Under the pieces are notes generated by a model. It did no database searches and was not told where the DNA came from. It saw nothing but the letters and a program-made list of their open reading frames with translations. Position numbers and translations under genes: made by a program. Positions 2,001 through 14,954 of a stretch of DNA of 64,000 nt are shown piece by piece. Position 1 is the stretch's first letter. Each line of letters begins with the position of its first letter. The DNA lies in contig NZ_QURN01000012.1 of assembly GCF_003403035.1 (NCBI RefSeq), positions 62,001-126,000 of the forward strand. The letters run 5' to 3'. The stretch is from Mesorhizobium denitrificans (lineage in GTDB: Bacteria; Pseudomonadota; Alphaproteobacteria; Rhizobiales; Rhizobiaceae).

Positions 2001-2321
2001 TCAACCCTGCCGTTCAGGGACGCGAACGACGAGACCGTTCAACTCATCGCGGACCCTGATCTGGCACGAAAGACGCGAATTCGGCCGCACGTCATAGGCG
2101 AAGTCGAGCATGTCTTCTTCCATCGCCTCGGGTTCGCCGACGGCAGGCATCCACGCTTCATCCACATAAACATGGCAAGTGGCACATGCGCAGGCGCCGC
2201 CGCACTCGGCTTCAATGCCGGGAACGTCGTTTCGAATGGCATTTTCCATCACGGTCGAGCCGTTTTCGGCTTCGACGTCAAACTTTGTGCCGTCGAAGGC
2301 GATGAACGATATTTGTGTCAT
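2001..2321 (-). CDS. 2Fe-2S ferredoxin, adrenodoxin type
   Basis: Small soluble electron carrier of 106 residues. The cluster ligands are Cys40, Cys46, Cys49 and Cys86: a CX5CX2C motif (with an extra Cys44) followed 37 residues later by the fourth cysteine, which is the adrenodoxin/FdxB spacing. The acidic stretch [13 protein letters not shown] between the third and fourth ligands is the usual partner-binding surface. The SRLSCQIRV ending is also typical. It stands alone between a convergent DUF922 gene and an Hpt gene on the same strand. Likely partners are a P450 system or iron-sulfur cluster assembly, but nothing nearby decides between them. Confidence 0.93.
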
Positions 2322-2447: not shown

Positions 2448-2825
2448 TTACCCTGCGAGAAGCTGCGCAAAGCGGCTAGCTTCATCGGCAAGCCCATCCA
2501 GCTGCTTCAAAGCTTGCGCATCGTCTGGCTGTAGCATCAGGCGCTCGGCGCAGTCGGAAAGCGCGAACGCGCCAACCGCGCGCGCAGCACCTTTCAGTTT
2601 ATGCGCCAGCCGCGTGCGATCCTCACCCTCAGCGGCAGGAATTTCCCGCCTTGCCGCGGCAAGTTGATCGATGAAAATGAGCAGTACCTCGCGCTGCAAC
2701 TCCGCATCGTTCATTGTCTGCTGAGCGAGATGGGTGATATCGATGGGTGCGCTTGCCATATTCTTGCCGCCAGAAGCCTCTCCAGAAGGTGCAAAAACCG
2801 GTTGGAAAATAGAGTTTTGCACCAT
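2448..2825 (-). CDS. Histidine-phosphotransfer (Hpt) domain protein
   Basis: A single-domain phosphorelay intermediate of 125 residues. The motif AHKLKGAARAVGA contains the expected phospho-accepting histidine (His75), set in a four-helix-bundle pattern. The first 22 residues look disordered, and translation could instead start at Met23. The first ATG has AGGA nine bases upstream, so I keep it. No kinase or receiver gene lies nearby. It is transcribed divergently from the giant polar-growth protein across a 284-bp gap, and that placement is the only hint to its role. Confidence 0.82.
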   Translation of the reverse strand: MVQNSIFQPVFAPSGEASGGKNMASAPIDITHLAQQTMNDAELQREVLLIFIDQLAAARREIPAAEGEDRTRLAHKLKGAARAVGAFALSDCAERLMLQPDDAQALKQLDGLADEASRFAQLLAG

Positions 2826-3109: not shown

Positions 3110-6100
3110 ATGGCGAAAAAGACGACTTCGAGCAAAGCGCTCGACCGTGACGTCGCGAAACAGCTTGAGCAGGCACTGGACAAAGATCTTGCCAATGACG
3201 GTCTGATTGAACAGCCCGAAGCGGCTGCTGCGTCCGGCAATCTTGTTACACTCAAGGAACTTGAGGTGCAGATTTCCAAGGCCGCGGACGAGCTTGCGCG
3301 CGCGGGGCGCGGCGATCCTGCAACCGAGGCGTCAGCAGCAAACGTCAATTCTGACTCGCAGCAGACGCAGCGGCCGGCCGAATTTGCACCGGCTAATGAT
3401 GACAGGCTGACCGACCGCCGCAGCTTCCGCGAACATTTCGGACGCGGCGGCTCGCGTGCGCCCTATGTTATTGCCGGCTTGCTCAGCGTTATCTGGCTCT
3501 TCATCTGCTACGCAGTGGCCGTGCGCACCCTGCCCTCCGCAATCTGGGACGCTACGCGCGTCGAGGAGATCATTCAGGATCGCTCTGCAGTATTCATGGG
3601 CGCGCTGACGCTGATCCCGATAATGCTCTTCTGGGCGTTTGCGGTGATGGTGCGCCGTGCGCAGGATATGCGTCTTGCCGCGCAATCCATGACTGAACTG
3701 GCATTCAGGCTGGTTGACCCGGAAGCTTCCGCGCACGGGCGCGTGCAGACCGTGGGCCATGCCGTTCGGCGCGAAGTGGCCGCATTGAACGAAGGAATTG
3801 AGCGCACGCTCGCGCGCGCGGTCGAGCTTGAAACACTCGTGCAAACGGAAGTGAACCAGCTCGAACGCTCCTACACGGACAATGAGGCGCGTATCCGCCG
3901 CCTGGTGGACGGTCTGGGAAGCGAGCGCGAAGCCGTTGTGAGCCATGCCGAGCGTGTGCGCGCATCCATCGCCGGTGCGCATGAAACGTTGCGCGAGGAG
4001 TTGAGTGCCGCAAGCGACCTGATCCGTCAGAACATTTTGAGCGCGTCGGAAAACCTTTCCTCGACCATCAAGGATTCCGGCACGGACATGATCCAGCGCT
4101 TCAACGAAAATGGAGCGGAGGTCTTCACGCAGATCGACGAGAAGTTCGGCTCGCTGTCGGACCGCATCACGGAGTCCGGCCAGACGATTGGCTCGATGCT
4201 GGATTCGCGTATCGCCAACCTCACCCAAGGCACGGTCGACGCAGCACAATCGCTGTCCCGCGTTCTCGAAGAGCGCGCCACCAGCATGATTTCGCTGCTG
4301 GGTTCGGCAACAAACTCGCTGAACGATGAGTTTAATAAGCGCCTGCATGACATTGAAAACACACTGACTGAGCGCGGCCAATCGCTGATCGGCGAGTTCC
4401 AGAGCCGCGCGGACGCTCTGGACGTCGGAACGGAGCGCCTGAACGTGGCGCTTGAGGCTCGCGCCCGCCAGATCAACGACACTCTGGTTGAGCGCACGCG
4501 CGAGATCGCAGGCAGCTTCGCCAGCGGCAAGGAAGACCTCGCCCGCCTCATCGAGGAAAATCAGAAGCGTATCGACTCTGAAATGTCTGCGCTGGTTCAG
4601 ACGGCGTCTGCTGCGCTCGAACAACATGCAGAGCAATTCATTGACCGTCTGGACGCTGGCCGCAGCCGTCTCTCCCGCGCGCTCGATCAAGATCTGGAGC
4701 AGTTGGCGCAGGCCCGCGCGGAAATAGATGCCGCAGCAGCCGACGAAATGCGCCAGCTTTCGCAGAGCCGCGCACAGATGATCGAAGACCTGCACAGCGA
4801 GCTTGGACAGTTTGACCGCAGCCGCGCCGAGTTTGTCGAAGAAGTAGCCGGCCACGTTGCGCGCATGGAAGAAAGCCGCACGGCAACCAGCGCTGCTCTC
4901 GCGCAGGACCTCGGCAAGGTGGAGGAATCGCGTCGTCTTATCGATCTTTCGATGGGCGAGCATTCGCGAAGCCTGAGCGAAGGACGCGAAGCGCTTTCGA
5001 ACATGCTGAGCGACGATCTCTCCCAACTCAACGAAGCGCGCAACGCGATTGATGAATCAGTTCGCGGTCACGTCAGCAAGCTGGGCGAAGGACGCGACCT
5101 GTTGAAGCGCGCGCTGGACTCCGATCTGATTCGCGTTACGGAAAGCCGCAAGGAACTCGACGAGACGTTTGCGCGCCTGGTTGCTTCGCAGTCGGAGCGC
5201 TTTGAGGAGGGCCGCAAGGCGCTGACCGATGCGCTGCAGGAAGACCTGAACAAGCTGGCCGAAAGCCGTGCCAACATTGATGGTCTGGTTGCACGGCAGG
5301 TCGAGAAATTGGCGGAAGGCCGCGACATTCTGCGCCGCGCACTGGAATCCGACCTCTCAAAGGTCGCCGAAAGCCGTACCGAAGTTGACGCCATGATCAA
5401 CGAGCTCGTCGTCTCGCAGGGCGAAAAGCTGGAAGAAGGCCGCCGCGCACTTGCGCTCGCGCTGCAGGATGATCTCGACAAGCTCGCCTCGGCGCGCTCG
5501 GACATTGATGGGCTGGTTGCGGGACAGGTGAGCAAGCTCTCCGAAGGTCGCGATATTCTCAAGCGCGCATTGCAAGCGGACCTTGAGCAGCTTTCGACGG
5601 AACGTGACGAACTGCATGGCGCAATCCAGACGCATCTGGGCAACCTGTCCAGCCATCGCGACGAAATGGCGAAGGCGCTCGAACAGGATTTGCAGCGGCT
5701 TGCTTCCAGCGGCAAGGAACTTGGCGAAGCGCTGCGCACGGCAATCGCCAGCCAGGCGGAAGGTCTGGAACATGGGCGCCGGGTACTTTCCGACGCGTTG
5801 CAGGAAGACCTTGCGCGCCTTGGCGACGACCGCGCTGCGCTGGACGGCATGGTTGGCCGGCAGGTCGAAAGGCTGGCGGAAGGCCGCAATATTTTGCGCC
5901 GCGCTTTGGAAGCCGATCTCGACAAGATCAATGAGAGCCACGCCGATCTGGGCAATCAGGTTGCGTCGATCGTTGCCGACCTCGGCCGTACATTCGAAGC
6001 GGGCCACAAGGTTATCACGCAGACGGTTTCCTCTGATCTCGCCCGCATGAACGAAAGCCGGTCTGAACTGGACAGCCAGTTGAGCGGCATGATGGCCGAG

Positions 6101-9100
6101 TTGAGCCGTACCTTCGAGGACGGTCGCAGCGCCATTGCGCAAACTGTGGCGGATGATCTTGAAAAGCTCGCAGAAAGCCGAGCGGCAATCGATTCCATGG
6201 TTGCCGGTCAGGTCGAGAAGCTGGCAGAGGGCCGCGACCTGTTAAGCCGCGCACTGGAAGCCGACATCGAAAAGCTGGATCAACATCGCGTCGGGCTTGA
6301 TTCCTCCCTTGCCCGCATGCTTTCAGAACTCAATCGCGGGTTCGAGGATGGCAGCAGATTGCTGAGCGACACTATCGAAAGCGACCTCGCCAAGCTGGCG
6401 GAAAGCCGCGTCCATGTAGACGAATTGATCTCCGGTCAGGTGCATAAGCTTTCGGAAGGTCGCGCGCTGCTCACCCGTTCGCTGGAAGCGGATTTGGCGG
6501 AGTTCGACAAGCGCCGCATCGATCTGGACGATTCACTCAAGTCTGTCGTCGAGCGCCAGAAGACCTCCTTCGATGAAGGTCGTGACGCGCTTGCCGCCGC
6601 GCTGGAAGACGATCTGGCAAAGCTGGCCGAGAGCCGCAGCAGCATAGATGGCCTCGTTTCGGCGCAGGTTGAAAAGCTGGCGCACGGCCGTAACATTCTC
6701 GTTCGCGCGCTGGAGGGCGATCTTGGCAAGCTCGCACAGAGCCGCAAGGAACTGGACGATACGCTGAGCCAGATCACCGTGCAGCTTAACGGCAGCTTCG
6801 GTGCAGGCCGCGACGCTCTCGCCGCGGCGGTGGAAGAAGACCTGCAAAAGCTGGCCGATACACGGATGCAGATTGACGAAATGGTGTCCGGCCAGATCGG
6901 CAAGCTGGCCGAGGGCCGCAACCTGCTGGTGCGCGCGCTCGAAACCGATCTGAAGCGCCTCACCGACGCCAAGTCTGAGTTTGACGGCGGCGTGGTGAAC
7001 CTCATCAATAGTTATAGCGACAACTTCACCGAAGGCCGAGCCGCCCTGTCTCGCGCGCTGGAAGACGACCTCACCAAGCTGGCCGAAAGCCGCGCGAGCA
7101 TAGACGGGCTCGTGGCCGCGCAGGTGGAGAAGCTATCAGAAGGACGCAACATTCTCGTGCGTGCTCTGGAAGCGGACCTGTCGCGCATCGGCAATAGCCG
7201 CGACGAACTGGAATCCCTGATGCAGCGCGTCGCCGTTGAGCAGGAAGAAGGGCTGGCGAAGGGCCGCGAACGGCTTTCGCAGGCGCTGGAGGACGATCTT
7301 CGCAAGCTTGCTGAATCGCGCTCCGATATTGACGGTCTGGTGGCCGGTCAGGTCGAGAAACTGTCCGAAGGCCGCAATATTCTCAAGCGCGCGCTTGAGG
7401 CCGATCTTGTAACGCTGGGCGAAAGCCGTGTCGAGCTGGATGCAGCGCTGGTGAAGATGCTCGAAGGACACCATGCCGTGTTCGAGGAGCGCCGCGCGCA
7501 GCTTAGCCGTGCGCTCGAAGGCGATCTTGAAAAGCTCGCCGAAAGCCGCGTCAGCATCGATAGCCTCGTTTCCGGTCAGGTTGAGAAGTTGGCCGAAGGC
7601 CGCAATATCCTGCGCCGCGCATTGGAAGCCGATCTCTCGGCGGTGGATGCGGCGCGTGAAAACCTGCAGGCTGCGCTCAATGGCCATATCGACGGGCTGA
7701 ACCAGGGCCGCAACAATCTTTCGGCTGCGCTGGAATCTGATTTGCAGCGGCTCGACGAAGCCCGCACTTTGCTGGATGCGCAGGCTGCAGAACACATCAA
7801 GGTATTCGCGGATCGGCGTCAGGAAATCTCCGCAGCGCTGGCTGGCGATGTCCAGCAGATCGACGCGTCCTTCCAGCGCCACATCGATGCAATTTCCGAC
7901 CGCGCGAGCGCGGTGGAGAATGCGCTTGCTACAGGCGTGGAAAACGTCCGCATCGTGCTGGAGCACAGCGCCGTGCGCACTGCCGGAGAGTTGCGCGACA
8001 AGGTTCTGGAACTGACTGCCGCCTTGACCAGCGAGGCTGGCAAAGTGTTCACCGATGCCGATCGCCAGATTGCGGTGCGCGCGGAGGAAACGGCGCATTC
8101 GCTCGCCAGCCGCACAGAGGAAATTGCACGCGCATTCGAGGATGCGGACCGCCGCATTTCCGATCGCGCGCTGGACAGCCTGCAGGGCATTACGGCGCGC
8201 GCCGAAGAAGCTGCCGACCACATTGCCGATCGCGCGCAGCGCATCGGCGAAGTGTTCGAGCGGGCAGACGAGGTCATTGCCGCACGTGCGGACGAAACCG
8301 GACGTGGCGCACAGGCCCGTGCGGCTGAGATCGAACGATTGTTCGATGATGGCGACCGCAAGCTGGCAGCGCGCGCAATCGAAAATGCGAGTGCCCTCGC
8401 CCAGCGAGCAATCGAAATTGTCCAGTTGTTTGAAAGCGCAGATGGCAGGATTTCGGAGCGCGTCAGCTCTTCTGCAGACGCACTTTCGGCTCGCGCAGAC
8501 GAACTGAGGGCCATGTTCGAGCGCGCCGACAACCTGCTGTCTTCGAACATTTCGGCTGGTGCCGACCAACTTTCTGCGCGCGCTTCGGATGTCGCGAACA
8601 TCTTCTTCGAGACGGAGCAGCGCATCGTCGCACGCACACATCAAACGTCTGCGGAACTCAGCCAGAAAACCGAAGATATCGCCAAGATCCTCGAACAGGC
8701 CGAAAACCGGATCGTGTCGCGCACGGGCGAAACGGCCGCGGAACTCGGAACGCGGGCTGGCGAAGTTGCGCGCCTGTTTGACGATGCGGATCGCAAGATC
8801 GCGGACCGCGCGGACGCACTGACCGCCGCGCTCGACCAGCGTACGGCGCAGTTTGGGGAATTGTTCGAGCAGACCGACAGCCGCCTTGTTCGCCGCACAG
8901 GCGAGACGGCACAGGAACTCGAACGGCGTGCGCGCAACATTGGAGACGCGCTGGCATCTGCCGAGCAACGCCTGGCGCAAAGCTCCGATCAGGCGGTCAT
9001 CCGCATTTCGGAAGATGTCGCACAGGCCGAGGCACGCCTCTCGCAAGCGGCAGCGGACGTACGCAGCTCGATTGAGCAGGATTTTGCAACCAGCGAAGCA

Positions 9101-10786
9101 AAACTCTCGCAGCGCGCCAACGTTATCGCGGACACGTTCTCCGCTGTCGGCAAGCACATCACCGAAACCACCAACGAAGCGGCTCGAACGCTGGGCGACA
9201 ACACGCGCGAACTGAACGAGATTCTGGAATCGCGTTCGTCCGAAATGATCCGCATCCTTGACGATACGGCACGTCCACTCGCCGAACGTTTCACCGCAGG
9301 CGGAAGCGAACTGGAACGCAGCATCGAAGCAGCGGCCGAAAAAGCAACGCAGCGGTTGCGTGCGGAAAACGCTGAGTTTGTCGAGACCTTGGCAGGCCAA
9401 GCCAATCAGGCGCTGGCCGCTGCATCGGACACACGCGCGAAGATCACCCAGGCAGTCGATCAAACCGTTGCCAAGGTTGTGGATTCGAACCGCCAGCTTT
9501 CCGAACTTGCAGGACTGGCCGAACAGAGCCTCGACACGGTTGACCGCCGCCTGAATGAAACAACGCAAGCGTTTGCGGCTTCGACCGAACGCGCCGCGCA
9601 GACCTTTGCCAGCTCGGCGCGCCTGCTGGATTCCAACACAACGCGCCTCACCACCATGACTTCGGAAACGCTGAAGGCCGTGGCGGGAATCGCCAGCCGC
9701 TTTGACGAGCACAGCAAGCTGCTGTCGTCCGCGAGCGATCTCCTCGGCTCGGCGCAGGGCAATCTCGTTACGACGCTCGGCGACCGTCAGAGCGCGCTTG
9801 AAGATCTCGCGGTTGGGCTGGTCAAGAAGTCGGAAGACATCGAAAAGATCATGAGGTCTTTCGAGGGACTGGTGATGAACTCGTTTGCGCAAGCCGAAGG
9901 TCGTGCGCAGGAAACGACCGCAAGTATCCAGAAGTCGCTTTCATCGGTGATCGACGGAGCTACACAGCGGTTCGCGGATGCGACCGACGAACTGCGCAAA
10001 GTTTCTGAAACGATCCGGCACGAGTTGGACGACACGCGCAATGCGTTGAAGAAGGGCATCGTGGACATGCCCGTCGAGGCGCGGGAATCCACAAGTGCAA
10101 TTCGCCGTGCCGTGACGGAACAGATTAACGCATTGAAGGAACTGTCCGCGATTGTCGTGCAGTCGGGTCGGACCATTGATGTCAGCGATCCTGACCGCTC
10201 CGTGATCCGTCGCCCGGTTTCCAATTCCGAGACGCGGTTGGCGGAACGCTTTGCAACACCGAGCGCACCTGAGGAAGTGAAACTGCCGCTGCGTGGCTCC
10301 ATCGTGGATGCGCCTCAGCCAAAGCCACGCGTAGCGCCGGTACCAGCGCCAGCCCCTGCACCGACTCCTGCCCCTGCAGCGCCGGCAGGCGAGGTGAAAA
10401 CCGCACCGCGCGTGGAAGTGATTACACCTGCGCCAGCCGCGCGATTGGACAACACGCTGGGGTCGCTGGCCAAGGATATCGCCAAGTCGATCGATACTGA
10501 GACACTGAGCGAGATCTGGGAACGTCGCGAGGCCGGTCGCGCGCTGGATGTTTCACGCAGGCTCTACACGTTGCGCGGCCAGCAGATTTTTGATGAGGTG
10601 GCTGATAAGTATCGCCGCGACGACGGCTTCCGTACGGCGGTGGATCGTTACTGCGACGACTTCGAGCGGTTGCTGGATCGTGTCAGCCGCACCGAAGGCG
10701 GAAAGCTGAAAGTGCGCAATTACGAGATGTCCGATACCGGCAAGGCATACATCATGCTCGCTCACGCATCGGGTCGCCTGGCGTAG
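3110..10786 (+). CDS. Giant coiled-coil polar growth protein, growth-pole-ring (GPR)/apolipoprotein-like
   Basis: A 2558-residue membrane-anchored protein. Order of parts: a soluble N-terminus (1-115); two membrane helices (about 119-138 and 162-182) with a short loop; a very long helical rod; a Pro/Ala linker around residue 2410 (PAPAPAPTPAPA); and a conserved C-terminal domain of about 110 residues ending HASGRLA. The rod holds two repeat systems: eleven units marked by IDGLV...QVEKLAEGR...RALEADL (about residues 645-1515), and 29-residue units around residues 1716-1950. Two-helix anchor, size and apolipoprotein-like rod match the Agrobacterium GPR protein (about 2100 residues), which forms a ring at the growing pole and organises unipolar growth. 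Older databases call such proteins kinesin-like. The match is from memory of family architecture; function here is inferred. Confidence 0.85.
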   Translation: MAKKTTSSKALDRDVAKQLEQALDKDLANDGLIEQPEAAAASGNLVTLKELEVQISKAADELARAGRGDPATEASAANVNSDSQQTQRPAEFAPANDDRLTDRRSFREHFGRGGSRAPYVIAGLLSVIWLFICYAVAVRTLPSAIWDATRVEEIIQDRSAVFMGALTLIPIMLFWAFAVMVRRAQDMRLAAQSMTELAFRLVDPEASAHGRVQTVGHAVRREVAALNEGIERTLARAVELETLVQTEVNQLERSYTDNEARIRRLVDGLGSEREAVVSHAERVRASIAGAHETLREELSAASDLIRQNILSASENLSSTIKDSGTDMIQRFNENGAEVFTQIDEKFGSLSDRITESGQTIGSMLDSRIANLTQGTVDAAQSLSRVLEERATSMISLLGSATNSLNDEFNKRLHDIENTLTERGQSLIGEFQSRADALDVGTERLNVALEARARQINDTLVERTREIAGSFASGKEDLARLIEENQKRIDSEMSALVQTASAALEQHAEQFIDRLDAGRSRLSRALDQDLEQLAQARAEIDAAAADEMRQLSQSRAQMIEDLHSELGQFDRSRAEFVEEVAGHVARMEESRTATSAALAQDLGKVEESRRLIDLSMGEHSRSLSEGREALSNMLSDDLSQLNEARNAIDESVRGHVSKLGEGRDLLKRALDSDLIRVTESRKELDETFARLVASQSERFEEGRKALTDALQEDLNKLAESRANIDGLVARQVEKLAEGRDILRRALESDLSKVAESRTEVDAMINELVVSQGEKLEEGRRALALALQDDLDKLASARSDIDGLVAGQVSKLSEGRDILKRALQADLEQLSTERDELHGAIQTHLGNLSSHRDEMAKALEQDLQRLASSGKELGEALRTAIASQAEGLEHGRRVLSDALQEDLARLGDDRAALDGMVGRQVERLAEGRNILRRALEADLDKINESHADLGNQVASIVADLGRTFEAGHKVITQTVSSDLARMNESRSELDSQLSGMMAELSRTFEDGRSAIAQTVADDLEKLAESRAAIDSMVAGQVEKLAEGRDLLSRALEADIEKLDQHRVGLDSSLARMLSELNRGFEDGSRLLSDTIESDLAKLAESRVHVDELISGQVHKLSEGRALLTRSLEADLAEFDKRRIDLDDSLKSVVERQKTSFDEGRDALAAALEDDLAKLAESRSSIDGLVSAQVEKLAHGRNILVRALEGDLGKLAQSRKELDDTLSQITVQLNGSFGAGRDALAAAVEEDLQKLADTRMQIDEMVSGQIGKLAEGRNLLVRALETDLKRLTDAKSEFDGGVVNLINSYSDNFTEGRAALSRALEDDLTKLAESRASIDGLVAAQVEKLSEGRNILVRALEADLSRIGNSRDELESLMQRVAVEQEEGLAKGRERLSQALEDDLRKLAESRSDIDGLVAGQVEKLSEGRNILKRALEADLVTLGESRVELDAALVKMLEGHHAVFEERRAQLSRALEGDLEKLAESRVSIDSLVSGQVEKLAEGRNILRRALEADLSAVDAARENLQAALNGHIDGLNQGRNNLSAALESDLQRLDEARTLLDAQAAEHIKVFADRRQEISAALAGDVQQIDASFQRHIDAISDRASAVENALATGVENVRIVLEHSAVRTAGELRDKVLELTAALTSEAGKVFTDADRQIAVRAEETAHSLASRTEEIARAFEDADRRISDRALDSLQGITARAEEAADHIADRAQRIGEVFERADEVIAARADETGRGAQARAAEIERLFDDGDRKLAARAIENASALAQRAIEIVQLFESADGRISERVSSSADALSARADELRAMFERADNLLSSNISAGADQLSARASDVANIFFETEQRIVARTHQTSAELSQKTEDIAKILEQAENRIVSRTGETAAELGTRAGEVARLFDDADRKIADRADALTAALDQRTAQFGELFEQTDSRLVRRTGETAQELERRARNIGDALASAEQRLAQSSDQAVIRISEDVAQAEARLSQAAADVRSSIEQDFATSEAKLSQRANVIADTFSAVGKHITETTNEAARTLGDNTRELNEILESRSSEMIRILDDTARPLAERFTAGGSELERSIEAAAEKATQRLRAENAEFVETLAGQANQALAAASDTRAKITQAVDQTVAKVVDSNRQLSELAGLAEQSLDTVDRRLNETTQAFAASTERAAQTFASSARLLDSNTTRLTTMTSETLKAVAGIASRFDEHSKLLSSASDLLGSAQGNLVTTLGDRQSALEDLAVGLVKKSEDIEKIMRSFEGLVMNSFAQAEGRAQETTASIQKSLSSVIDGATQRFADATDELRKVSETIRHELDDTRNALKKGIVDMPVEARESTSAIRRAVTEQINALKELSAIVVQSGRTIDVSDPDRSVIRRPVSNSETRLAERFATPSAPEEVKLPLRGSIVDAPQPKPRVAPVPAPAPAPTPAPAAPAGEVKTAPRVEVITPAPAARLDNTLGSLAKDIAKSIDTETLSEIWERREAGRALDVSRRLYTLRGQQIFDEVADKYRRDDGFRTAVDRYCDDFERLLDRVSRTEGGKLKVRNYEMSDTGKAYIMLAHASGRLA
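5048..7640 (+). repeat. In-frame 228-bp (76-residue) repeats within the polar growth gene, eleven copies
   Basis: Taking the isoleucine (or Val/Leu) codon of the IDGLV-like motif as the marker, copies start at 5048, 5276, 5504, 5840, 6188, 6416, 6644, 6872, 7100, 7328 and 7556. Eight of the ten intervals are exactly 228 bp. The other two are 336 and 348 bp, which is 228 plus 108 (36 codons) and 228 plus 120 (40 codons). Each 76-residue unit is itself a 36-residue and a 40-residue half, both ending in an EGR...RALExDL segment. Confidence 0.93.
8255..8953 (+). repeat. In-frame 87-bp (29-residue) repeats within the polar growth gene, eight units
   Basis: Units begin at 8255, 8342, 8429, 8516, 8603, 8690, 8777 and 8864, each exactly 87 bp apart, with the register continuing to 8951. 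The consensus is roughly FExADxRIxxRxxExxxxLxxRAxEIxxL. A related 40-residue unit precedes the run at 8135. Confidence 0.93.
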
Positions 10787-11784: not shown

Positions 11785-12870
11785 TCATCGACGCGCTCTA
11801 CCATCATAACGTCTGACTTCGCCATCGCCACCGCCAAGAATGCGCTGCGGATTGCGCTCAAGATCGGTAATAGCTCCCTCGATACGATTAACCGACCGGC
11901 GAGCATCATTGATGAGTGCTTCGGCATCACGCAACCCCTGCCCCGAGAATCGAGCCAATCCATCGGTGATCGTCCCCAACTTCGAGTTGAGCGTGTCCGC
12001 AACCTGCCGATATGCCTTCAGCGTGTCGTTGATTTGAACCATAACGCCCTGCGCGTCACCAGATCCGAGCAGATTGTCGACCTTGGTCACTACCGTGTCG
12101 AACTTCTTGCCAGTCTCGGTCAGGTTCTTGGTGAAGATGTCAACATTGGTCACGACATCCGAAACCTTGTTCTTGTCGATTGCCTTGACGATTTCTTCCG
12201 CCGCCTTGAGCGTGCCATCCAGCTTTTGCGAAACGCCGGAGAGTTCGTCGGCAAGGTTGGAAACGCTGCCGAGGAATTTATCTACGCCATCCGAATTGTT
12301 CGCCAGCGCATCCGAGAACTTGCGCGCGTTCTCTGCGGTTTTCTGGAGTTCAGGGCGAACGTCTTTGGTGAAGCCCTCAAGCTCGACCAGAACCTTGTCT
12401 GTCCGGGTCAAAATCTCCTGGGCGGTTTGCAGCAGACTTGTAACAGCCGACGGGCTCGCGGTGACTTCAGGCACCTTGTTCTGCTCATCAGCCTCGGTAA
12501 ACAGATTCGGCTCCTGCAGGCTGCCACCCTTCATTTCAATGTTTGCAGTACCGGTCAGGCCAGCCAGACCGATGACGGCTTGCGTGGAGCGTGTAACCGG
12601 GGTCCGCCGGTCAACCATCGCATCGGCGATAGCAGCCGAAGGATTTGCGCGATCGATATAGACGGTCTGCACCTCACCCACGCGCACACCGTTGAACAGC
12701 ACGACACTGCCGCGCCCCAGACCCGACGCCGAGCCAGGAATGCGGAAGCGCAGCAAAGTCAGTTCGCCCTTGTCGCTGACTGCGGCGGTCCAATAGACGA
12801 ACAGAAACGCGCCGAGCACGGCAAGGACCGTGAACAAGCCGACGATTACGTAATTTGCTCTGGTTTCCAT
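11785..12870 (-). CDS. mlaD: MCE-family lipid-binding protein (MlaD)
   Basis: Periplasmic substrate-binding part of an Mla-type phospholipid transporter. The 361 residues comprise one N-terminal membrane helix (about residues 8-27), an MCE domain (about 38-115, with VRVGEVQTVYID and LAGLTGTANIEMKGG), and a long helical C-terminal region (about 145-340) that in MCE proteins assembles into a tube or needle. It is longer than E. coli MlaD (about 180 residues) and closer to the alphaproteobacterial single-MCE form. It lies 7 bp downstream of mlaF. Confidence 0.93.
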   Translation of the reverse strand: METRANYVIVGLFTVLAVLGAFLFVYWTAAVSDKGELTLLRFRIPGSASGLGRGSVVLFNGVRVGEVQTVYIDRANPSAAIADAMVDRRTPVTRSTQAVIGLAGLTGTANIEMKGGSLQEPNLFTEADEQNKVPEVTASPSAVTSLLQTAQEILTRTDKVLVELEGFTKDVRPELQKTAENARKFSDALANNSDGVDKFLGSVSNLADELSGVSQKLDGTLKAAEEIVKAIDKNKVSDVVTNVDIFTKNLTETGKKFDTVVTKVDNLLGSGDAQGVMVQINDTLKAYRQVADTLNSKLGTITDGLARFSGQGLRDAEALINDARRSVNRIEGAITDLERNPQRILGGGDGEVRRYDGRARR

Positions 12871-12877
12871 GGAAAAT

Positions 12878-13693
12878 CTAAGCTCTGTGACGCAAGTCGA
12901 GATGCCGCGCTCGCTTGCCTCTGAAATAGGATTTCACCCACGGCTCCTCGCTTTTCAGCATGTCTTCTATGGTTCCCTGAATGAGGACACGCTTATCGCC
13001 GAGGACTGCGATACGGTCGCAGGCCGTGAAAAGACTATCGAGGTCATGCGTGACCATATAAACGGTCAAGCCGAGCGTGTCGCGCAGCTTTATGACAAGC
13101 TCGTCGAACTCTGCTGCACCGATTGGGTCCAGGCCAGATGTCGGCTCATCAAGAAAGACAAGGTCGGGATCGAGCGCGAGCGCACGCGCAAGGGCGGCGC
13201 GCTTGATCATGCCGCCGGAAAGCTCAGACGGGAATTTCGGCCCAGCATCGCGCGGCAAGCCAACAAGCTCAATTTTGAGCATTGCAAGCTCGTCCATCAG
13301 CTTCTTTGGGAGGTCCAGATATTCCCGCATCGGAACCTGAACGTTTTCGAGCACGGTAAGTGCCGAAAAAAGCGCGCCGTGCTGAAAAAGCACCCCCATG
13401 CGCATGTCGATTGCCATTTTTTCTTCCGGCGTGGCCTTATCGACGTCGATGCCGAACACTTTAACGGTGCCCGCCTGCTTGCGGTTCAAGCCGAGAATAG
13501 TACGCATCAGCACAGATTTGCCCGTGCCCGAACCGCCGACGAAACCCAGAATTTCGCCGCGATAGATTTCGAGATTCAAGTTTTTCAGGACTACCTTCGA
13601 GCCGAACGCAACGGTGATGTCATGCGCGGTCAGAATAATCTCATGATCGTGCCGTTCTTCTGAAATTTCTTGCGCTTCTGCTGTGTCTGCCAT
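12878..13693 (-). CDS. mlaF: Lipid ABC transporter ATP-binding protein (MlaF)
   Basis: Cytoplasmic ATPase driving the Mla transporter; 271 residues. Walker A GGSGTGKS (53-60), Q-loop glutamine (Gln104 in LFQHGALF), signature LSGGM (158-162) and Walker B with D-loop (LVFLDEPTSGLDP, 178-190) are all intact. The PTSGLDPIGAAEFDELI stretch is characteristic of MlaF rather than of other ABC ATPases. It lies 8 bp after the permease gene and 7 bp before mlaD, so the three genes are one transcript. Confidence 0.95.
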   Translation of the reverse strand: MADTAEAQEISEERHDHEIILTAHDITVAFGSKVVLKNLNLEIYRGEILGFVGGSGTGKSVLMRTILGLNRKQAGTVKVFGIDVDKATPEEKMAIDMRMGVLFQHGALFSALTVLENVQVPMREYLDLPKKLMDELAMLKIELVGLPRDAGPKFPSELSGGMIKRAALARALALDPDLVFLDEPTSGLDPIGAAEFDELVIKLRDTLGLTVYMVTHDLDSLFTACDRIAVLGDKRVLIQGTIEDMLKSEEPWVKSYFRGKRARHLDLRHRA

Positions 13694-13701
13694 GGTTCGC
13701 C

Positions 13702-14877
13702 CTAGAAGTTGATAGTGGCGAAGAACATGGCGAACAAGCCGTCCATGATGACAACGACAAAAATGGATTTCACGACCGAACTCGTAACCTGACGGCCAAG
13801 CGACTCCGCGCTGCCGCCCACCTTCAAGCCCTCGACCGAAGCAAGAATGCCGATGATGATCGCCATGAACGGCGCTTTGACCAGACCGACCGCGATGGTT
13901 GACACATCGATTGCAGAACGCAGCCTGTCGATAAACGCTGTGGGCGGAATGTCTACATAGGCCCAGCCGACGAATATCGCGCCTGCAAGTGCCGCGAAAT
14001 TCGCGATGATGGTGAGCAAAGGCAGCGAAATAACCAGCGCGACAAGGCGCGGAAAAACAAGCACGCCAACCGGATTAAGGCCGATGACGGTGAGTGCATC
14101 GACCTCCTCGCGCATTTTCATGGAACCGATTTCGGCAGTGATAGCGCTGCCGGATCGACCGGCAACCATGATCGCAGTCATGAGCACGCCGAGTTCGCGC
14201 AGAACCAGAATGCCGACCAGATCGACCACGAAAATGTCAGCACCGAAATAGCGCAACTGGAACGCGCCCTGCTGCGCGATGATCGCGCCAACGATGGCCG
14301 ACATGAGCACGACAACGGGGATGGCGCCGACCCCCATGCGGTCAATCTGGTGAACAATGGCGGTGAAGTTGATCGACTGGCCGCGACCGGCCTTCATCTG
14401 CCCGCCACGAATGGTCGCGCCGAGAATATAAAGCGAGGCGGTGACATCGTCGCGCACGCTGTAAACAGAGCGCCCTATGCTCTCCAGCAAGCGGATCAAG
14501 ACGAAAGGCTTTGGTTCCGGCTTGGTGTCGTCTTTCGATTCCGCGGCAGGCTCGACAGCATCCAGCAGGATGGTGTCATCCTTGTTAGCGCCCGAAATGG
14601 AAACCTCTATCTTGCGTTCGCGAAACGCTTGCGTGAAACGATCCACGATCCACGCGCCTGCCGTATCGATGCGGCCAATGCTGGATATGTCGACCTCCAC
14701 CCGCTCCACACCCTTGGTGGATTGAAGTGCGCGCATCTGGTCGTCCACCTTGCCGACGCGGCGAGTGGACCAGATTCCCGTCAGTTGAACCGAAAGCACG
14801 CCGCCCTCCTGCTGGGAGGCAACGACCGGCCCGTCCTCTGGGCGACCGGGAGCGTTTGTGCGGCGTTTGGTCAACAT
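13702..14877 (-). CDS. mlaE: MlaE-family permease with N-terminal STAS-like domain
   Basis: Inner-membrane permease of the lipid transporter; 391 residues from the ATG at 14877, preceded by AAGAGGTGG at good spacing. The open frame extends 12 codons further up, but without a ribosome site. Residues about 25-125 form a STAS-like domain (VDISSIGRIDTAG, IVDRF) fused to the MlaE channel domain with its hydrophobic helices and the conserved ELGVLMTAIMVAGRSGSAI and EVDALTVIGLNP motifs. In E. coli the STAS domain is the separate protein MlaB, so this fusion explains why no mlaB is present. First gene of the mlaE-F-D-lipoprotein operon. Confidence 0.94.
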   Translation of the reverse strand: MLTKRRTNAPGRPEDGPVVASQQEGGVLSVQLTGIWSTRRVGKVDDQMRALQSTKGVERVEVDISSIGRIDTAGAWIVDRFTQAFRERKIEVSISGANKDDTILLDAVEPAAESKDDTKPEPKPFVLIRLLESIGRSVYSVRDDVTASLYILGATIRGGQMKAGRGQSINFTAIVHQIDRMGVGAIPVVVLMSAIVGAIIAQQGAFQLRYFGADIFVVDLVGILVLRELGVLMTAIMVAGRSGSAITAEIGSMKMREEVDALTVIGLNPVGVLVFPRLVALVISLPLLTIIANFAALAGAIFVGWAYVDIPPTAFIDRLRSAIDVSTIAVGLVKAPFMAIIIGILASVEGLKVGGSAESLGRQVTSSVVKSIFVVVIMDGLFAMFFATINF

Positions 14878-14954
14878 CGCCCACCTCTTACCGGCACGAC
14901 AGCGGCATGTCACTTTGCTGCCTGGTCAACAGGCGATTCGCAGAGTGCAAATTC

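Follow-up and report, generated by a model that had tools for sequence, protein, structure and literature searches.

Helix-phase-preserving length variation in the rod of a putative GPR/RgsE-type polar-growth protein of Mesorhizobium denitrificans and its homologues

GPR and RgsE are important for polar growth in Rhizobiales. In the available portions of two papers, GPR (Atu1348) of Agrobacterium tumefaciens and RgsE (SMc00190; 2,089 aa) of Sinorhizobium meliloti are described as membrane-anchored growth-pole proteins (PMC8262873, PMC7327166). GPR was found by experiment to form a growth-pole ring and to be required for rod shape; the ring measures 200 nm and comprises six foci, and the extended helical domain of 1,700 residues is given as 600 nm (PMC8262873). 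RgsE has been called repeat-containing and GPR apolipoprotein-like, and the same portions give no unit lengths (PMC8262873, PMC7327166); the words repeat, heptad and hendecad are absent from PMC8262873. In the literature searched, chiefly titles and abstract openings, no unit lengths or indel lengths were found for GPR or RgsE. Here, we describe a gene of this type, P0001, in a 64,000-nt stretch of Mesorhizobium denitrificans (contig NZ_QURN01000012.1), hereafter the window.

Like GPR and RgsE, the 2,558-aa protein P0001 has two N-terminal membrane stretches and a very long helical rod, followed by a proline-rich stretch and a C-terminal domain (A. tumefaciens GPR was compared by its published description). 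The rods differ in their repeats: that of S. meliloti is mainly of the 11n type (lags 106, 22, 44 and 11; period 3.656), whereas the window has units of 36 and 40 residues. Two further systems offer partial parallels. FilP and Scy of Actinobacteria are described in the consulted part of PMC9858780 as pole-associated hendecad coiled-coil rods of fewer than 200 to more than 1000 residues. Unlike the window protein, they have a DivIVA-type N-terminus and belong to another phylum, and membrane helices go unmentioned in that part; the likeness, judged by description, is one of design, not descent. In the Caenorhabditis synaptonemal-complex SYP proteins, there is selection against coiled-coil indels, as is proposed here, according to the part of PMC8598163 consulted. 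SYP coil length is conserved, while the length of GPR-type rods varies strongly, in phase-preserving quanta. The indel rule for a polar-growth rod is the new element reported here. We assign a probability of roughly two in three to the reading that the protein is a membrane-anchored, near-straight coiled-coil tether, the length of which evolves in such quanta.

The half-unit array and its hydrophobic stripe

Coordinates are positions in the window, and aa denotes residue numbers of P0001. The array is marked by a unit-head motif, EGR[ND][IL]L.RAL..DL with small variations allowed, which starts at 5087, 5315, 5543, 5879, 6227, 6455, 6683, 6911, 7139, 7367 and 7595. The intervals between markers are exact, as the original prediction held: 228, 228, 336, 348 and six times 228 bp, or eight of 228 with one of 336 and one of 348. 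Self-identity over aa 640–1520 was highest at lag 76 (0.44), followed by lag 152 (0.40) and lags 36 and 40 (~0.25); over the whole protein, lag 76 reached z = 23. Segmentation by expectation-maximisation and dynamic programming divided aa 588–1571 into 26 contiguous units (14 of 36 residues and 12 of 40) and placed an additional 36-residue unit at aa 516, set off from the array by a 36-residue gap. Alternation of the two lengths is broken by 36,36 at aa 588/624, 776/812 and 1460/1496 and by 40,40 at aa 924/964. The two internal breaks in alternation account for the 336- and 348-bp intervals. The segmentation agrees with an array composed of whole units and additional single half-units.

Two parts of the original prediction needed correction. 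The periodic spacing was correctly located, but the array extends beyond the proposed 5048–7640, to 4871–7822. The repeats are exact in spacing and not at the DNA level, where the best same-length pair of units reached 0.75 ungapped identity and Tandem Repeats Finder reported no array in the half-unit region. A young DNA-level tandem array in the window was rejected on the maximum unit identity of 75% together with this null result.

The arithmetic of 36 = 2x7+2x11 and 40 = 7+3x11 corresponds to real core spacings: the core columns follow 11-7-11-7 in the shorter unit and 11-7-11-11 in the longer one. A hydrophobic core at 7/11 spacing with a single coherent stripe is what characterises a mixed heptad/hendecad coil, and both were found. 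The array stripe has a period of 3.618, against 76/21 = 3.619, and its two central 30-degree sectors consist of V/I/L/M/F/W/Y at 86% and 77%. The zones of the rod have stripe periods of 3.648 (aa 205–520), 3.618 (588–1572), 3.632 (1580–2040) and 3.59 (2056–2321). Outside the array, lags 33, 22 and 11 are among the strongest at aa 180–520, and lags 29, 58 and 87 at aa 1600–2130.

A unit of 36 and a unit of 40 residues would deviate from a whole number of turns by ~19 degrees each, with opposite sign; the pair, 76 residues long, therefore makes 21 turns with zero net drift, from which a nearly straight rod is expected. Stripe phase was tracked in windows of 72 residues, with one turn taken as 76/21 (3.619) residues. 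It stayed between 48 and 66 degrees across aa 637–1465, apart from one excursion: past the extra 36-residue unit it stood at 87 degrees (window at aa 889), and past the extra 40-residue unit at 57 degrees (aa 997). Since the phase rises after the extra 36 and returns after the extra 40, these internal half-units cancel.

Across three species of its genus, the array has stayed fixed. The window protein and two same-genus orthologues (77–81% pairwise identity) align with gaps only up to aa 89 and from aa 2381 onwards. All 26 units are nearer to their counterparts in one orthologue (G002) than to any other window unit, and the same is true of 25 of 26 for the other (G001). The idea of an array still growing was not borne out, as there were no rod indels among the three species. 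Assembly error, which had been raised as a possible source of the repeat, is unlikely, because the two other same-genus genomes agree without an indel between aa 90 and 2380.

Indel lengths and helical phase across homologues

Homologues were searched for with the C-terminal 139 aa as the query. The best 80 of 114 related loci, mostly from Mesorhizobium, were taken. Of 60 relatives, 58 were used, G010 and G052 (frames of 160 and 178 aa) being omitted, and 59 genomes were added, mainly as same-genus partners. The 198 proteins, including that of the window, reduced to 191 that were 5'-complete and at least 800 aa long, then to 181 unique sequences, of which 173 had usable landmarks. Prolines served as landmarks, since exactly three occur in the rod of 148 of the 181 unique proteins. 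The window rod likewise has three prolines in ~2,180 residues, with a proline-free span of 1,851 residues between aa 204 and 2056. Where a homologue did not match the distal segment over its full length, landmarks were extrapolated, and gaps straddling the variable and distal parts were counted as variable.

Rod length differs widely. Among the 148 three-proline homologues, the first two prolines are 85 to 2,202 residues apart, and the last two are 264–265 apart in 96. The variable rod measures 384–2,171 residues in the 109 homologues that have all the landmarks; where these were extrapolated, some rods have fewer than 200 residues and one has 2,450. An alpha helix rises 0.15 nm per residue, which places the first two prolines of the window rod ~278 nm apart. 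At the same rise, the 1,700-residue helix of GPR would be ~255 nm long, as opposed to the published 600 nm.

To compare the length differences, 62 disjoint pairs of homologues were aligned, 61 of them at an identity of at least 0.6. In these 61 pairs, the variable rod contained 101 indels, none of which was shorter than 7 residues, and the distal segment contained two. The two flanks contained 299, of which 241 were shorter than 7 residues. The aligned residues numbered 76,721 in the rod and ~31,900 in the flanks. The commonest rod indels were 29 (20 times), 11 (14), 22 (12), 36 (9) and 33 (6) residues, followed by 40, 51, 66, 88 and 94 (3 each). Sums of the form 7a+11b accounted for 73 of the 75 rod indels shorter than 60 residues (55% of the lengths from 7 to 59 qualify) and for 19 of the 57 flank indels of 7–59 residues. 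At a period of 3.62, 82 of the 93 rod indels of 7–100 aa lay within 45 degrees of helical phase, as 24.5% of lengths would, compared with 13 of 58 in the flanks. The binomial p of 2e-38 for the rod is nominal, because disjoint pairs do not prove independence. Four gap penalties gave 0, 2, 1 and 0 rod gaps under 7 residues and the same overall picture. In an aligner control, all 80 random simulated deletions (1–60 residues, with 20% substitution) were recovered exactly.

The indels also follow the period of the rods in which they occur. The stripe periods of all 166 measured rods fall between 3.620 and 3.666, with medians of 3.656–3.662 where the top lag of self-identity is a multiple of 11 and of 3.624–3.626 for lags 29, 36 and 94. 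The best indel period was 3.664 for pairs with a multiple-of-11 top lag (30 indels) and 3.614 for the remaining pairs (68), the two classes having been defined after the lags were seen; these values are close to the stripe periods of the corresponding rods.

Unit length itself varies. The top lag in 134 proteins, a count that includes near-duplicates, was 29 (59 proteins), 22 (18), 94 (13), 36 (11), 11 (10), 33 (6), 76 (4) or 44 (4), with fewer for others. The four lag-76 proteins, namely that of the window, L112, L113 and L032, are all of the window's genus, and L113 and L032 apparently come from one genome. Half-units of 36 and 40 residues occur in other arrangements in two other genera, as a run of eight 36s (L125) and as 36+11 steps (L227). 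In a FastTree phylogeny of 107 rows built from the non-variable parts, 13 changes of unit class were counted among 100 labelled rows; the number is rough, as the tree has many long branches. The original prediction had looked to homologues for periodicity at 36, 40 and 76 residues. In this it fared unevenly: 76 is absent from most of them, which repeat at 11n, 29, 36 or 94, and the broader rule of phase-keeping lengths holds for the pooled pairs as well as for both length classes.

Inserted segments point to the origin of the changes. In pairs of at least 90% identity, 20 of 34 inserts had a DNA identity of at least 0.8 to an adjacent segment, against rod-wide medians of 0.32–0.45; each identity is the best of many shifts and so an upper value. 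This resemblance indicates that many inserts arise by module duplication or loss.

A phase-preserving tether and its alternatives

We propose the following model. Two N-terminal membrane helices would hold a rod that is probably cytoplasmic and, past the Pro/Ala linker, would end in the conserved helical domain. The rod is predicted to form a long alpha-helical coiled coil in which heptads and hendecads are mixed. Its length would change by duplication or loss of modules, almost only phase-keeping lengths being seen, and because such lengths keep the stripe in phase, the rod can lengthen or shorten in quanta without interrupting the interface. Selection on helical phase would be the main cause of the indel spectrum. 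If the chains pair in parallel and in register, as seems plausible, any phase-preserving length would be acceptable. At the growth pole, the rod may serve to tether the C-terminal domain or to hold it at a distance.

On this model, the natural indel record serves as a mutational scan, which suggests that an unbroken helical stripe is required and that length is otherwise negotiable. It also suggests informative lengths for a test, 29, 40 or 76 residues against 5, 9 or 20, and this way of reading indels could be applied to other long coils.

Several observations weigh against the model. Part of the quantisation may reflect repeat recombination instead of selection. One pair, L209/L210, has off-rule rod indels of 15 and 26 residues, 11 of the 93 rod indels of 7–100 aa deviate by more than 45 degrees at 3.62, and it was the two weaker gap penalties that yielded the two and one short rod gaps. 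At the two ends of the array, the 36,36 steps have no 40 to offset them and the phase moves, from 21 to 55 degrees near aa 565–601 and up to 92 degrees near aa 1537. The distal segment varies by lineage, as only 115 of 181 proteins match its profile over the full length, and the second and third rod prolines of the S. meliloti protein are 429 residues apart. Finally, a weak point is the AlphaFold single-chain model of aa 924–1267 (two sequences), which has low confidence (pLDDT 62) and consists of two helices, 149 and 185 residues long, separated by a break of 8 residues.

A stronger version of the same idea, which we regard as possible though improbable, is a phase-locked evolvable ruler. Modules of opposite error, such as 36 and 40, would keep a coil hundreds of nanometres long nearly straight, and rod length, which ranges from tens to ~370 nm across homologues, would set the reach of the C-terminal domain from the polar membrane and hence the geometry of the growth zone.

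A first alternative, which we consider unlikely, is an apolipoprotein-like lipid-surface helix, in which the rod would lie on membranes as an amphipathic helix of the 11-mer type and organise lipid. In the consulted part of PMC8262873, GPR is classed as apolipoprotein-like and a lipid-sorting role is proposed. The PF01442 profile (Apolipoprotein A1/A4/E) matches the window protein with E 2.6e-22, the C-terminal profile has a single weak match in the PDB, to apolipoprotein A-I (E 0.037), and stripe periods of 3.62–3.67 are compatible with this arrangement. A single membrane helix would also need a stripe near 3.6–3.67 and would also accept mainly phase-preserving indels. Apolipoproteins of the A1/A4/E type have an 11/22-residue amphipathic periodicity and are punctuated by prolines. 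The window rod is unlike them in being continuous, proline-poor (1,851 residues without one) and acidic, with a narrow stripe, and the PF01442 match of 79.9 bits falls below the 90-bit Pfam cut-off. The array has a net charge of -6 per 100 residues. Its mean lipid-binding score, a computed proxy, is -0.01, and means across 170 homologues lie between -0.2 and 0.12. Because the stripe is narrow, the rod acidic, the lipid score near zero, the span free of proline and the PF01442 match below its cut-off, a coiled-coil tether with a putative oligomeric state is favoured over a lipid-surface helix. Of the apolipoprotein-type mixed coil first suggested, the mixed coil is retained, on the basis of core columns and stripe, and a function of apolipoprotein type is not supported. 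The apolipoprotein label may reflect a superficial likeness that stems from periodicity.

We consider it rather unlikely that the spectrum is a mutational pattern, in which unequal recombination makes repeat-multiple indels with little or no selection on helical phase. The 20 of 34 inserts in close pairs that resemble their neighbouring segment are what such recombination would leave. However, 0 indels under 7 residues in the rod stand against 241 in the flanks, although the flanks, which are lower in complexity, may just be more tolerant of indels. Moreover, repeat lengths, which recombination does not choose, keep phase in all 134 top lags but that of L162 (lag 125, z 4.0, weak). An assembly or annotation artefact of a repetitive gene is highly improbable: some draft homologues are truncated at contig ends or lack the N-terminal landmark, but the three same-genus genomes agree, with no rod indel, and no near-identical tandem array is present.

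Domain layout, identity and neighbourhood

The features of the locus are collected in Table 1. Two hydropathy peaks were found in 132 of the 181 unique homologues, three in 33 and another number in 16. Comparison of the whole protein with solved structures gave no match at E <= 0.001, and neither did a Foldseek search with the C-terminal domain. Alignment of this domain by VIA-align to 269 of 270 Foldseek chains gave a best Z of 5.8 (1tm9), which, by the tool's own note, may reflect merely a common arrangement. A match to ZorA (NCBIfam; E 2.1e-4, 19.7 bits against a cut-off of 190) was dismissed as coil noise.

Table 1. Position and strand of the features at the P0001 locus in the window
Feature	Position	Strand	Remarks
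GPR/RgsE-type gene P0001, 2,558 aa (putative)	3110..10786	+	one C-terminal match per genome; S. meliloti 2,089-aa homologue
Two hydrophobic (transmembrane) stretches	3467..3646	+	hydropathy; best 19-residue windows start at aa 120 and 161
N-terminal rod zone, aa 205-515	3722..4654	+	lags 33/22/11, stripe period 3.648
36/40-residue half-unit array, aa 588-1571	4871..7822	+	14 x 36 + 12 x 40, stripe period 3.618
Irregular step, extra 36-residue half-unit, aa 776-887 (36,36,40)	5435..5770	+	phase up ~25 degrees
Irregular step, extra 40-residue half-unit, aa 924-1003 (40,40)	5879..6118	+	stripe phase returns
29-residue repeat zone, aa 1600-2040	7907..9229	+	29 = 11+11+7 arithmetically; stripe period ~3.63
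Distal rod segment, between prolines aa 2056 and 2321	9275..10072	+	
Pro/Ala-rich linker, aa 2361-2442	10190..10435	+	
Conserved C-terminal all-helical domain, 118 aa	10430..10783	+	no Pfam match below E 0.001
Divergent neighbour gene with Hpt phosphotransfer domain	2448..2825	-	
(2Fe-2S) ferredoxin-like neighbour gene	2001..2321	-	name borrowed from S. meliloti annotation, same position

Judged from sequence, the window protein appears to be a GPR/RgsE-type polar-growth scaffold, in agreement with the original prediction. The assignment is supported by homology to a protein of RgsE length in S. meliloti, the transmembrane stretches, the C-terminal match and the neighbourhood. The C-terminal match occurs once per genome in all 61 genomes (the window's own and 60 relatives) and in 139 of 141 in a family-level draw. 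The other two family genomes, G078 and G127, have no C-terminal GPR match, owing to loss or to an assembly gap. The S. meliloti coding sequence (CDS; L229, CP090106.1) encodes 2,089 aa, the published length of RgsE, and has Hpt and (2Fe-2S) genes upstream, as does P0001. It matches the N-terminal landmark profile with 111.8 bits and the distal profile with 227 bits (positions 1–271 of 297). Its blastp match to the window protein has E 3.9e-121 at 24% identity, mostly in the coil and without composition correction; the C-terminal domains are 51% identical. Identification of this CDS as RgsE is based on species, length and homology; in the record itself it is annotated as a kinesin.

The neighbourhood is conserved by our own criterion, which is not a published definition. 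An Hpt gene lies upstream on the opposite strand in 122 of the 132 loci with room for it, within 1.5 kb in 116, and likewise in S. meliloti; a ferredoxin-like gene lies upstream in 124 of 132, within 1.5 kb in 117. These conserved neighbours raise the possibility that a phosphorelay is connected with polar growth.

Some minor observations were made along the way. Six draft contigs (G010, G072, G088, G099, L082 and L098) begin only ~75–205 bases before the C-terminal match, and the Pro/Ala linker of gpr may be a region near which assemblies tend to end. The record CP090106.1 is titled pSymB, yet it is 3.72 Mb long and carries the RgsE-like and cytochrome bc1 genes; it may be a mislabelled chromosome. 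In the window's own genome, PF06723 matches three frames of 692, 635 and 460 aa (contigs C1, C41 and C43), none of them MreB-sized. MreB was rejected for these frames, which were read as Hsp70- and FtsA-like from size only; the absence of an MreB-sized frame fits the expectation for a polar grower. Downstream of gpr, at 11785–14913 on the minus strand, genes with MlaD, ABC-ATPase and MlaE domains form an Mla-type lipid-transport set.

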